Positions 41,917 through 44,903 of a DNA stretch of 64,000 nt are shown here, in pieces. Position 1 is the stretch's first letter, and each line of letters opens with the position of its first letter. A model generated the notes under the pieces. It had not been told where the DNA came from. It made no database searches and worked only from the letters and a program-made list of their open reading frames with translations. The position numbers and the translations under genes were made by a program. Source of the stretch: Anaerolineaceae bacterium (GTDB lineage: Bacteria > Chloroflexota > Anaerolineae > Aggregatilineales > Phototrophicaceae); contig PABP01000021.1 of the NCBI GenBank assembly GCA_002699585.1, positions 124,001-188,000 of the forward strand, given 5' to 3'.

Positions 41917-43761
41917 TCACTCGACCGTCACACTCTTGGCTAAATTGCGTGGTTGATCAACGTCTGCGCCCCGCAAACTGGCAATATGATAGGCCAGCAG
42001 TTGCAAAGGAACCACATTCACAATGGGGCTGAGAAGGGTGGGCATTTTCGGCAGATACAGGACGTGGTCTGCTTTATCAACTATGAGCGTATCGCCCTCG
42101 GTTGCTAATGCGATCACGATACCTCCGCGCGCTCGTGCCTGCTCCACCTGGCTTATCATTTTTTCGTAGAGATCATCCTGTGGAACGATGGCCAAAACAG
42201 GCATATTTTCGTCGATAAGCGCAATGGGGCCGTGTTTCATTTCGCCTGCTGGGTATCCCTCAGCATGGATATAGCTAATCTCTTTTAGCTTAAGTGCGCC
42301 TTCCAGCGCGATAGGGTAGTTGATGCCTCGGCCCAGGTAAAGGAAGTCCGTATATTGATACAGATCGTGGGCGACATCTTCGATCTGGCTATCCAGGTCA
42401 AGCGCCTGACTGACCAGGTTGGGTAGCAGGCTCAGATCATGAATGTGTTCTGTGATGGATTCCTGAGAGAGCGTTCCCCGTGCTTGGCCCAGATAGAGTG
42501 CGAGCAGGTACTGATCGACCATGCTGGTGACAAATGCCTTAGTCGATGCCACCCCGATTTCCGGTCCAGCGTGCATAGCAATCGTGCCATCGCTGATGCG
42601 CATGGCTTGGCTGCCAATGGCATTGACGATACTCCATACGGTGGAGTCCGCCTCTCTAGCGGCCTCGATGGCAGCCAGGGTATCAACCGTTTCACCACTT
42701 TGCGTGATAGCTAGCACAGCGGTATTTGCATCGAGGATAGGCTCACTATAGCGATACTCACTCCCATAGGCGACTTCTACCGTCAGTCGAGCCAGTTTTT
42801 CGATGAAGAATTTCCCGACTAGACCGCTGTAGTAGCTAGTCCCGCAAGCGACTGTGACCATGCGCGTGATGCGTCTGGCCAACTCGGCATCGCAATTTAG
42901 CCCTGGCAATAGCACCTCCATCGCATCGAAATCAACCCGTCCACGGATCGTGTCTGTTATGGCCCTTGGCTGCTCGTACATTTCCTTCTGCATAAAGTGC
43001 TTGTACTCGCCTTTGACTGCACTCACGGGGTCATAAGGGATGCGATGAATTTCTAGTTCAACGGGTTCGCAATCCAGGGTCTGTATCTGGAAAGCATTTG
43101 AGGTGATGATGGCCATCTGGCGGCTTTCCAGGAAGATGAGATCGCGTGTGTGCTCCAATATCGCTGGAATATCCGATGCGACGAACATTTCGCCGTGCCC
43201 TAACCCCAATGCGACCCCGCCAGCATTACCAATCCGAACCGCGACAAAACGATCCGGCTGGTGGCGGCTCATGATGACGATAGCGTGTGCGCCGCGCAGG
43301 CGGCTAGCAGCTTGCCGGGTCGCTTCTGCGATGTCACGGATGCCTTGGTCGGCATAATGTTGCACCAACTGCACGATGACTTCCGTATCCGTATCAGAAG
43401 AAAAGACAATACCCAGATCCTGTAGCTCAGCCTTCAGTTCGAGGTAATTCTCGACGATGCCATTGTGGACGACTACGAATTCCTGGTTCATGCTGATTTG
43501 CGGATGGGCGTTGTGCTCGGCTGGTTCGCCATGGGTGGCCCAACGTGTATGACCGATGGCAATATGGCCCTCAAGCGGCTCACGCTCGACTTTATCCCGC
43601 AAGCGATGTAACTTGCCGACATCACGGCGAATCGTTATTTGCCCCTCGTTGATAACGGCGATACCCGCGGAATCATAGCCCCGATATTCGAGTCGTTGTA
43701 GTCCTTCGAGAACGATAGCCGTTGCATCGTTTGGACCAATATAGCCGACAATACCACACAT
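41917..43761 (-). CDS. glmS: Glutamine--fructose-6-phosphate aminotransferase (isomerizing)
   Basis: 614 residues, normal length. It makes glucosamine-6-phosphate from fructose-6-phosphate and glutamine, the first step to UDP-GlcNAc and peptidoglycan. MCGIVGYIG carries the N-terminal nucleophile Cys2; GHTRWATHGEP and NGIVENY complete the glutaminase site. Two SIS domains follow (VACGTSYYSG, TQSGETVDTLAAI, STKAFVTSM) and the protein ends in LAKSVTVE as usual. GGGGAGAG lies upstream of the ATG. A glmS ribozyme is in the leader, so expression is probably repressed by the product. Confidence 0.97.
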   Translation of the reverse strand: MCGIVGYIGPNDATAIVLEGLQRLEYRGYDSAGIAVINEGQITIRRDVGKLHRLRDKVEREPLEGHIAIGHTRWATHGEPAEHNAHPQISMNQEFVVVHNGIVENYLELKAELQDLGIVFSSDTDTEVIVQLVQHYADQGIRDIAEATRQAASRLRGAHAIVIMSRHQPDRFVAVRIGNAGGVALGLGHGEMFVASDIPAILEHTRDLIFLESRQMAIITSNAFQIQTLDCEPVELEIHRIPYDPVSAVKGEYKHFMQKEMYEQPRAITDTIRGRVDFDAMEVLLPGLNCDAELARRITRMVTVACGTSYYSGLVGKFFIEKLARLTVEVAYGSEYRYSEPILDANTAVLAITQSGETVDTLAAIEAAREADSTVWSIVNAIGSQAMRISDGTIAMHAGPEIGVASTKAFVTSMVDQYLLALYLGQARGTLSQESITEHIHDLSLLPNLVSQALDLDSQIEDVAHDLYQYTDFLYLGRGINYPIALEGALKLKEISYIHAEGYPAGEMKHGPIALIDENMPVLAIVPQDDLYEKMISQVEQARARGGIVIALATEGDTLIVDKADHVLYLPKMPTLLSPIVNVVPLQLLAYHIASLRGADVDQPRNLAKSVTVE

Positions 43762-43871
43762 AGACGCACTCTCCCCATGTTAGATAGGCATAAGCTGTGG
43801 CGGCGCATAACAAACGCAAAATACGCCTGGTAACGCATTCAGTTGATCGATATTTGGAGCTTATAAACCAC

Positions 43872-44075
43872 GCATACCATCGTTGTGACCACCGTTACCG
43901 GGGATTTTCTGAAAGCATGCTGTGTTGGGGAGAATTGCAGTCAGGGTTGTGGTTGTACCCTGGGCGGCATCCGCCGAAAAGTCGATTTTCCTCGCTTAAA
44001 CAACCTTCTGTATCAGCGAGTTAGCACACTGGAACCGCCACCTCGTCATCCTACACACAGGCAGGATCAGGCGCT
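43872..44075 (-). ncRNA. glmS ribozyme: glmS self-cleaving ribozyme in the glmS leader
   Basis: In the 419-base gap upstream of glmS the minus strand reads, in order, AAGCGCCTG (cleavage expected between A44075 and G44074), a P1-like hairpin (ATCCT 44067-44063 with AGGAT 44052-44048), GACGAGG (44047-44041), GGCGG (44039-44035), ATCGA (43986-43982), TTCGGCGGATG (43978-43968), CCGCC closing with GGCGG, a P3.1-like hairpin (CAGGGT 43962-43957 with ACCCTG), and a P4-like stem (GCATGC 43920-43915 with GTATGC 43877-43872). Block order and wording match the known glmS ribozyme. The family cleaves itself when glucosamine-6-phosphate binds. An extra hairpin (43991-44020) is inserted in the core. In the remainder (43762-43871, 44076-44180) I see only the glmS Shine-Dalgarno and no confident promoter. 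Confidence 0.88.
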
Positions 44076-44180
44076 TACTGGTCTCCCAAATCAATTTGCG
44101 GATATACCTCCAAAGCGTATGAGCAATTGCTATCACCATGCATCATAGCACAGATTCATGCACATACACTTGTAGATTTG

Positions 44181-44903
44181 CTATAGAAAGTTCAGGTATT
44201 CGGTTGTGATGTTCGCCAAATCCTGGAAGTTTCCGCGTTTTTCGGCTTCCTCATCGGGGATAAGCTGGGCGATCTGATACATGGCTTCTTGCATCATATC
44301 CTCGCGCATGGCTTTTGTCAGCCTGGGCGCACCATTCAGGCTAAAGCGAAATGGCTGCCCAAACGTGACGCTGGCATAGGCCTTATTTAAACGCTTGAGT
44401 CGATCTTTCCAGTCCTGGGCGCCGACAATGGCCGTAGGCACAACAACTGCATCGGTCTTGTGCGCGATGTAGGCAACGCCATCTTTGGGTTCACCAAGGC
44501 CATTGGGGCAGCGCGTACCCTCCGCTGCGATCATCAACAGTCGGCCATCATGCAACAAATCAATCGACTGTTTGAGTGCTTTGCGGTCCACTTCGCCCCT
44601 ACGAATAATGTAATTGCCCCATAGATTGATGACGCCGCGTGTGAACCACCCACGATACGCTTCGGCTTTGGCCATAGCGATCAGGTAACGATGGGGGATG
44701 ATGGCTGTTAAGACGATGGGGTCGATCACAGAGATGTGATTTGTCATGATGATTGTAGGCCCGGAATCGGGAATATTCTCCAGGCCTTGGACGTCGACAT
44801 TGCACAATCGAAAGCCGACAAACCGCAGTGCCTTATGTAGATACTTCCGGCGCTGGTCATAGAGGGCTTGTTTCTCGACAAAATCTAGAGCGACATTTGC
44901 CAT
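44181..44903 (-). CDS. plsC: 1-acyl-sn-glycerol-3-phosphate acyltransferase (PlsC family)
   Basis: 240 residues. The acyltransferase motif I is TNHISVIDP (NHx4D with Ser in place of the middle residue), motif II includes IIRRGEVDRKAL, motif III EGTRCPNGLGEPKDGVAYIA, and motif IV VVPTAIVGA. It adds the second acyl chain in phosphatidic acid synthesis at the membrane. It starts 21 bases after the pseudouridine synthase gene and its stop is 105 bases before the ribozyme cleavage site, so read-through into glmS is possible. Confidence 0.88.
   Translation of the reverse strand: MANVALDFVEKQALYDQRRKYLHKALRFVGFRLCNVDVQGLENIPDSGPTIIMTNHISVIDPIVLTAIIPHRYLIAMAKAEAYRGWFTRGVINLWGNYIIRRGEVDRKALKQSIDLLHDGRLLMIAAEGTRCPNGLGEPKDGVAYIAHKTDAVVVPTAIVGAQDWKDRLKRLNKAYASVTFGQPFRFSLNGAPRLTKAMREDMMQEAMYQIAQLIPDEEAEKRGNFQDLANITTEYLNFL

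Follow-up and report, generated by a model that had tools for sequence, protein, structure and literature searches.

Is the RNA that precedes glmS in this Anaerolineaceae bacterium a glmS ribozyme, and if so, is it an ordinary copy? The class is familiar mainly from Bacillota, and accounts of it usually present a uniform structure. The window studied here, the whole 64,000-nucleotide stretch of contig that was analysed, carries a minus-strand candidate of about 210 nt, flanked by glmS and a gene for a PlsC-type acyltransferase. The original prediction treated it as a standard copy. That view does not hold: the element is a structural variant with a 46-nt insert (44032-43987) that the prediction did not mention.

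Anatomy and detection of the element

The core blocks A^GCGCC, GACGAGG, AUCGA, and UCGGCGGAUG are all present, in order, on the minus strand (Table 1). The blocks as first proposed at the DNA level (AAGCGCC, GACGAGG, ATCGA, and UUCGGCGGAUG) are likewise all found in order, and the four stems proposed with them, ATCCT/AGGAT (P1), GGCGG/CCGCC (P2), CAGGGT/ACCCTG (P3), and GCATGC/GTATGC (P4), pair as claimed. The predicted cut at 44075/44074 is in the right place for the class, judging from the A^GCGCC block. All seven pairs of the P2.1 and P2.2 double pseudoknot can form, and P1, P3, P3.1, and P4 with a GNRA L4 loop are present. Thus, P1, P2, P2.1, P2.2, P3, P3.1, and P4 are intact, as are the catalytic residues that can be checked. 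The available text of PMC7125110 gives mutants (ten in all) at G1, C2, G3, A27, C28, G56, and G57 as non-cleaving references, and the window's element keeps the active base at all seven positions. According to the same text, the AUCGA strand contributes both to P2.1 and to the cofactor pocket. The end originally placed at 43872 is too short, as it omits the 3' strand of P3.1 (43871-43866). The estimate of about 110 bases to the glmS ATG is roughly right; we measure 105 nt between the 3' end of P3.1 and the start codon at 43761. Minimum-free-energy folding, in which pseudoknots are not possible, recovers hairpin B of the insert, P3, and P4 and returns no pairs of P1, P2, P2.1, P2.2, or P3.1; its z-score is -2.97, with 1 of 200 shuffles as low.

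Table 1. Features of the element and the flanking genes, in window coordinates; G26 to G32, C52 to G60, the G7-C52 pair, and the P2.1 nomenclature follow the available text of PMC7125110
Feature	Position	Strand	Sequence or partner	Basis
PlsC-type acyltransferase gene	44903-44181	minus		Pfam PF01553
glmS-type ribozyme, A-1 through P3.1 end	43866..44075	minus		RF00234 and R1 matches, base-by-base check
Predicted cleavage site	44074..44075	minus	A-1 (44075) / G1 (44074)	place in conserved A^GCGCC block
P2.2 5' strand, pseudoknot	44070..44073	minus	CGCC, partner GGCG 43975-43972	pairing; positions 5 and 53 correlated in relatives
G7-C52 pair	44068 with 43976	minus		numbering of PMC7125110
P1 hairpin	44048..44067	minus	ATCCT 44067-44063 / AGGAT 44052-44048	pairing; covariation in relatives
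Block GACGAGG (G26 to G32)	44047-44041	minus		sequence; numbering of PMC7125110
P2.1 5' strand, pseudoknot, cofactor pocket strand	44043..44045	minus	CGA, partner UCG 43985-43983	nomenclature of PMC7125110
P2	43963..44039	minus	GGCGG 44039-44035 / CCGCC 43967-43963	pairing; covariation in relatives
J2/2.1 insert, 46 nt	43987..44032	minus		defined against insert-free relative L008
Hairpin B	43991..44020	minus	CTCGCT 44020-44015 / AGCGAG 43996-43991	folding; covariation in relatives
Block AUCGA	43986-43982	minus		sequence
Block UUCGGCGGAUG	end at 43968	minus		sequence
Core strand C52-G60, contains G56 and G57	43968..43976	minus	CGGCGGATG	sequence; PMC7125110
P3	43942..43962	minus	CAGGGT / ACCCTG	base-by-base pairing check
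P3.1 L3 strand	43949..43954	minus	AACCAC, partner GTGGTT 43871-43866	anchored pairing test
P4 with A-rich internal loop, P4a, and GNRA loop	43872..43920	minus	GCATGC/GTATGC; loop GTAA 43898-43895	RF00234 match, pairing
P3.1 3' strand, beyond the original coordinates	43866..43871	minus	GTGGTT	anchored pairing test
Shine-Dalgarno-like site, 9 nt 5' of ATG	43771..43776	minus	GGGGAG	sequence
glmS, 614 aa, glutamine-fructose-6-phosphate transaminase	41917..43761	minus		translation, homology, Pfam

The search with Rfam model RF00234, proposed as the check on the original prediction, gives 33.0 bits against a gathering score of 37, which is an operational cut-off rather than a structural feature. At that cut-off the element goes unreported, the very outcome that the prediction had named as its refutation. 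At a lowered cut-off, the model matches the element from 43863 to 44086 over its full length (model positions 1-167), with an E-value of 1.3e-5 over the whole 6.7-Mb genome; it is the best of five matches at E<=10 genome-wide, the runner-up scoring 15.4 bits. We judge the sub-threshold score to be outweighed by the evidence from relatives. Model R1 was built from 25 relatives (alignment A1), with the window and the only other genome seen from its genus excluded. It scores the element at 74.0 bits (E 1.9e-14; runner-up in the window 10.3 bits), and over the 6.7-Mb genome the element is its single match at E<=10. An RNA of the glmS-ribozyme class does stand upstream of a real glmS, as predicted. 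Relatives that carry an insert of this kind exceed the RF00234 cut-off (for example, 44.9 bits in G015 and 59.6 in G023; inserts seen in L013 and L021), so we ascribe the low score to a limitation of the model and class the element as a structural variant. The 46-nt insert in J2/2.1 likely explains that score.

R1 was also run on a control of 30 glmS loci whose records bear the names of other phyla (17 + 13 loci, including ones with short upstream DNA, 13 nt in L160 and 261 nt in L151), and it found nothing above 15.2 bits. Its two weak matches in all, at 15.2 and 13.8 bits, are both on the other strand of L151. Left out of this control were L119, labelled Spirochaetaceae and R1-positive at 65.7 bits, and the insert-free Paenibacillus locus L251 (R1 33.5 bits).

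The element resembles the Bacillus and Thermoanaerobacter type described by RF00234 in its P2/P2.1/P2.2 double pseudoknot, P1, P3/P3.1, P4 internal loop, GNRA L4 loop, A^GCGCC cleavage-site block, and place before glmS, the structure being compared as given in the available text of PMC11602151. It differs in its 46-nt J2/2.1 insert and in its score under the gathering cut-off. The one Bacillota copy examined, from Paenibacillus cellulosilyticus (L251), is without the J2/2.1 insert.

McCown et al. reportedly described, in RNA in 2011, glmS ribozymes of Deinococcus-Thermus whose catalytic core contains additional stems. Extra core stems are the likeness to the present element, and the inserts of the two groups may be one and the same. 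Deinococcus plasmid records matching GlmS number 19; both of the matches listed are SIS-domain proteins. Because the class is well known and extra core stems are reported from Deinococcus-Thermus, we place the window's element within a known ribozyme class, as a structural variant, rather than in a new class.

Relatives, covariation, and the J2/2.1 insert

Within its class the variant is widespread and no isolated case. Across 396 genomes of the same class, R1 finds such RNAs in 230 at E<=0.001, whereas RF00234 finds 116 over its cut-off and 216 at E<=0.1. This is a large second population of glmS ribozymes, half of which is missed at the Rfam cut-off. Over the phylum, RF00234 matches 99 of 301 at E<=0.01. 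The host had been called a probable Chloroflexota member, which agrees with the labels of its closest 30 named GlmS relatives (74 to 60% identity): Chloroflexi, Anaerolineae, Anaerolineales, or Anaerolinea is the label of 29, and the remaining record is Candidatus Aquidulcis, making the class Anaerolineae very probable.

For structural comparison, 189 R1 matches were taken and 8 identical sequences removed, leaving 181; the set omits four second matches of low significance (E 0.15 to 0.62) as well as nine repeats of listed places. The J2/2.1 insert is present in 136 of these, a biased frequency given that the loci were chosen via RF00234 matches and GlmS searches. Neither core insert is found in 32, and 6 could not be parsed; three rows (L043, L059, and L237) were reassigned by eye. 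The remaining seven (L045, L049, L062, L125, L127, L174, and L237) have an insert only at a second place in the core, the loop between P2.1 and P2.2 after AUCGA. These second-place inserts are mostly hairpins, and J2/2.1 is ordinary in their carriers. The J2/2.1 insert also occurs in four loci outside the class (L244, L245, L246, and L248).

Alignment A1 contains 25 of the 35 sequences found with a pattern demanding exact core blocks; the ten unused are the window, its sister, and eight long or near-duplicate sequences (L063, L069, L172, L178, L184, L191, L204, and L221). P2.1 and P2.2 are invariant in A1 because the pattern required those columns. Changes on both sides are seen at 6 of 6 pairs in P1, 7 of 7 in hairpin A, and 5 of 5 in hairpin B. 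P2 covaries at two of its five pairs, the remaining three being invariant. Paired cells amount to 96.0% in hairpin A and 91.0% in hairpin B. For the whole structure the value is 96.6%, compared with 77.0% for shuffles and 34 to 47% for slid partners, although the sliding control flatters the structure, which was read from one A1 sequence. Between the window and its sister genome (G001), the sequences of P1, P3, P3.1, and P4 differ with pairing kept; P2 is identical.

For P3.1, true partners extend 2.23 pairs past a CAC/GTG anchor versus 1.53 (sd 0.08) for mismatched partners, and none of 200 shuffles is as high. This anchored test covers the 107 of 181 sequences that were usable, the 74 without the anchor, the sister genome among them, falling outside it. 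It was adopted after the result of an unanchored and uninformative test was known, in which the longest helix over wide stretches was 6.43 for matched versus 6.29 for mismatched partners (sd 0.09, highest 6.46). A kissing contact between GGUUGU of the window's hairpin B and ACAACC of L3 was considered and dropped, because P3.1 (AACCAC/GUGGUU 43871-43866), backed across relatives, explains L3 better. By eye, the contact is also unmatched in the L3 and hairpin B of the sister genome.

Positions 5 and 53 of P2.2 show a correlated switch between a Watson-Crick C-G pair and an A.A mismatch. Among the 162 RNAs labelled glmS, a label given to every row unlisted under another gene, the pair is C-G in 71, A.A in 77, A-U in 5, U-A in 4, and other in 5.

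The insert enters between the UU that follows the P2 5' strand and A42 of the AUCGA strand, just before the cofactor-pocket strand. A domain inserted there offers a natural experiment on the extent to which the catalytic core tolerates remodelling. The usual plan in relatives is GGUU, hairpin A, CUAA, hairpin B, and GAAAAUCGA. The window's insert consists of the 8-nt CCAGTGTG in the place of hairpin A, CUAA (44024-44021), hairpin B, and AAA. Its hairpin B has a folding energy of -11.5 kcal/mol, a value that none of 200 shuffles reached, and at 31 nt with the closing G it is the second longest hairpin B among the 35 inserts examined (32 nt in G001). The other 33 of the 35 inserts examined have hairpin A; in the window and G001, eight unpaired nucleotides occupy its place (CCAGTGTG and CCATTGTG, respectively). 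We define a Chloroflexota J2/2.1-insert subtype by a hairpin A of about 7 bp with a tetraloop after GGUU and by the CUAA linker, hairpin B, and then AAAAUCGA. The window's element has the second feature and lacks the first, so we count it as a reduced relative rather than as a full member of the subtype.

Of 123 parsed cases, 88 have a hairpin A of 18 nt, and the loop of these 88 is GCGA in 33 and GCAA in 25 (58 of 88). Such constancy of length and loop suggests that hairpin A docks elsewhere in the RNA. Hairpin B varies in length and sequence across relatives. The insert is most likely a scaffold that props the cofactor pocket. It could instead be a second sensor or a protein-binding site, such that cleavage needs two signals, a reading compatible with a working ribozyme but one we consider unlikely. 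The insert does enter beside the cofactor-pocket strand, and in relatives its hairpin, often of constant length, and conserved CUAA linker exceed what a spacer needs. However, a fixed-length GNRA hairpin is equally explained as an intramolecular docking element, the hairpin is absent in the window's genus, and the variability of hairpin B also speaks against a sensor.

glmS and its proposed control

The glmS gene downstream was the sole full-length copy that a search of the genome turned up; four further matches are partial and 20 to 37% identical. By position, the element would lie in the 5' leader of this gene. The genes rpmF and fabD, named from their translations, follow glmS on the same strand and might be affected too if co-transcribed with it. 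The genome also has an RNase J gene (585 bits against a cut-off of 400). In Bacillus, RNase J degrades cut glmS mRNA. Promoter- and terminator-like sites were not found (terminator scan 43700-44300); the promoter scan says little because Chloroflexota promoters may differ.

Homology, covariation, full anatomy, position, the single full-length glmS, and the RNase J gene together argue that the window's element is very probably a working ribozyme, dependent on glucosamine-6-phosphate (GlcN6P), that represses the genome's only full-length glmS. Plentiful GlcN6P would bind the ribozyme core and act as the catalyst for cleavage of the RNA between 44075 and 44074. Degradation of the cleaved mRNA, probably by RNase J, would follow and leave less GlmS. 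The simplest mechanism would be negative feedback, in which GlcN6P, the product of GlmS, cuts glmS mRNA.

Several observations speak against a working ribozyme. The RF00234 score of 33.0 is under the cut-off of 37, the minimum-free-energy fold leaves out P1, P2, P2.1, P2.2, and P3.1, and the scan showed no promoter- or terminator-like site. Another point concerns the window's family: of 28 genomes drawn from it, 12 have a match with one model or the other and 16 do not, 11 of the latter belonging to one genus, under strict filters that may lose weak matches. Absence or loss thus occurs, and both genomes seen of the window's genus are without hairpin A, which possibly entails some loss of function. 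The element might accordingly be a ribozyme in decay, with an inherited fold, a lost hairpin A, and cutting too slow to matter, glmS being controlled otherwise. We think this quite improbable. None of the core residues checked is altered, and every named helix is preserved. P1, P3, P3.1, and P4 have diverged between the genus's two genomes with pairing maintained, indicating that the fold is under maintenance. Moreover, 32 of 181 relatives have no core insert at all, so hairpin A is non-essential to the class. That the leader is an ordinary attenuator or an element masking the ribosome-binding site, as a structured leader directly 5' of glmS might suggest, is highly unlikely: the scan of 43700-44300 shows no terminator-like site, the Shine-Dalgarno-like site lies about 90 nt past the last helix and outside it, and the conserved parts are those of the catalytic core, which an attenuator does not need. 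Chance resemblance, with the sub-threshold Rfam score as the sole point in its favour, is refuted by the 74 bits from an independent model with a single match in the genome and by the 15.2-bit ceiling of the other-phylum control.

Copies before other genes

The window's element precedes glmS, as do most of its relatives. The next gene in the 181 matches is glmS in 162, glnA in 6, a DegT/StrS aminotransferase in 4, and a GTPase-SIS gene followed by glmS in 3. It is a CofD-like/phosphohexomutase protein, a glutamate-synthase-like protein, an FAD oxidase, or a transposase-like gene in one case each, and at a contig edge, undefined, in 2. A match counts as glmS-linked when the GlmS start lies within 600 nt by tblastn (from the ORF in L247), intervening small genes being allowed. 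Pfam confirmed one protein of each linked kind and two for glnA; the GTPase-SIS label is outside this confirmation and comes from reading the translation. The four single cases are carried by L058, L072, L067, and L043, the gene in L043 being a helix-turn-helix (transposase-like) one.

Seven RNAs precede glnA, the gene for glutamine synthetase (L066, L068, L071, L073, L080, L271, and L122 at 1235-1346). Among the matches listed, they occur in 6 of 10 genomes searched from family f58, each with a second copy before glmS. The seventh, L122, is from Anaerolineaceae bacterium UBA6133, its gene being read from the translation. G357 and UBA6133 each carry both copies, the one before glnA and the one before glmS, within about 2 kb on a single contig. 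All seven share an altered P2.2 with a purine at position 4 and A53 (GCGGC or GCGAC with UCAGCGG). The 4-54 pair is thereby broken in 7 of 7, whereas C4-G54 is kept in 156 of the 162 RNAs labelled glmS. RF00234 matches six of the seven loci over positions 1-167, four of them above the cut-off; L271 has no Rfam match at E<=0.01. Like these RNAs, the glnA RNA RF01739, a glutamine riboswitch, precedes nitrogen genes, and the available text of PMC3766115 treats glnA RNA as a separate glutamine riboswitch. In contrast to RF00234, RF01739 gives no match at E<=0.01 in any of the seven loci. Neither the variant nor the glnA-linked copies are described in the accessible portions of the glmS-ribozyme literature on Chloroflexi, Anaerolineae, Deinococcus, glutamine synthetase, and glnA (including PMC3766115 and PMC2258182), a weak absence with most subscription papers outside that scope.

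The RNAs linked to DegT/DnrJ/EryC1/StrS aminotransferase genes (L176, L181, L187, and L246) have the A.A form at 5-53 and a normal 4-54 pair, and each is the sole R1 match at E<=0.001 in its genome. An oxidoreductase-like gene, so named from its translation, follows the DegT gene in L176, L181, and L246.

The RNAs before other genes may be relocated GlcN6P ribozymes, a form with a new cofactor, or non-cutting copies. If the glnA and DegT copies cleave, the role of the ribozyme would widen from one enzyme to nitrogen and amino-sugar supply. A broader reading, which we offer tentatively and regard as somewhat doubtful, is that the Chloroflexota RNA forms a separate branch of glmS ribozymes. Its two-hairpin pocket domain would have allowed reuse before glnA, amino-sugar DegT aminotransferases, and other genes as an amino-sugar and nitrogen regulon. 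The cofactor or reaction would have changed in the glnA-linked form, with its broken 4-54 pair, and the window would hold a simple, glmS-only member.

Two further observations concern the glnA-bearing loci. The glmS-side RNA of UBA6133 (L122 2843-2952) has changed core blocks (GACCAGG and AAGGGCGG), possibly through decay or sequence error; the glnA-side copy keeps GACGAGG. Just 5' of the glnA-linked RNA of G382, L080 1294-1469 matches 6S RNA at 47.1 bits (cut-off 46.4).
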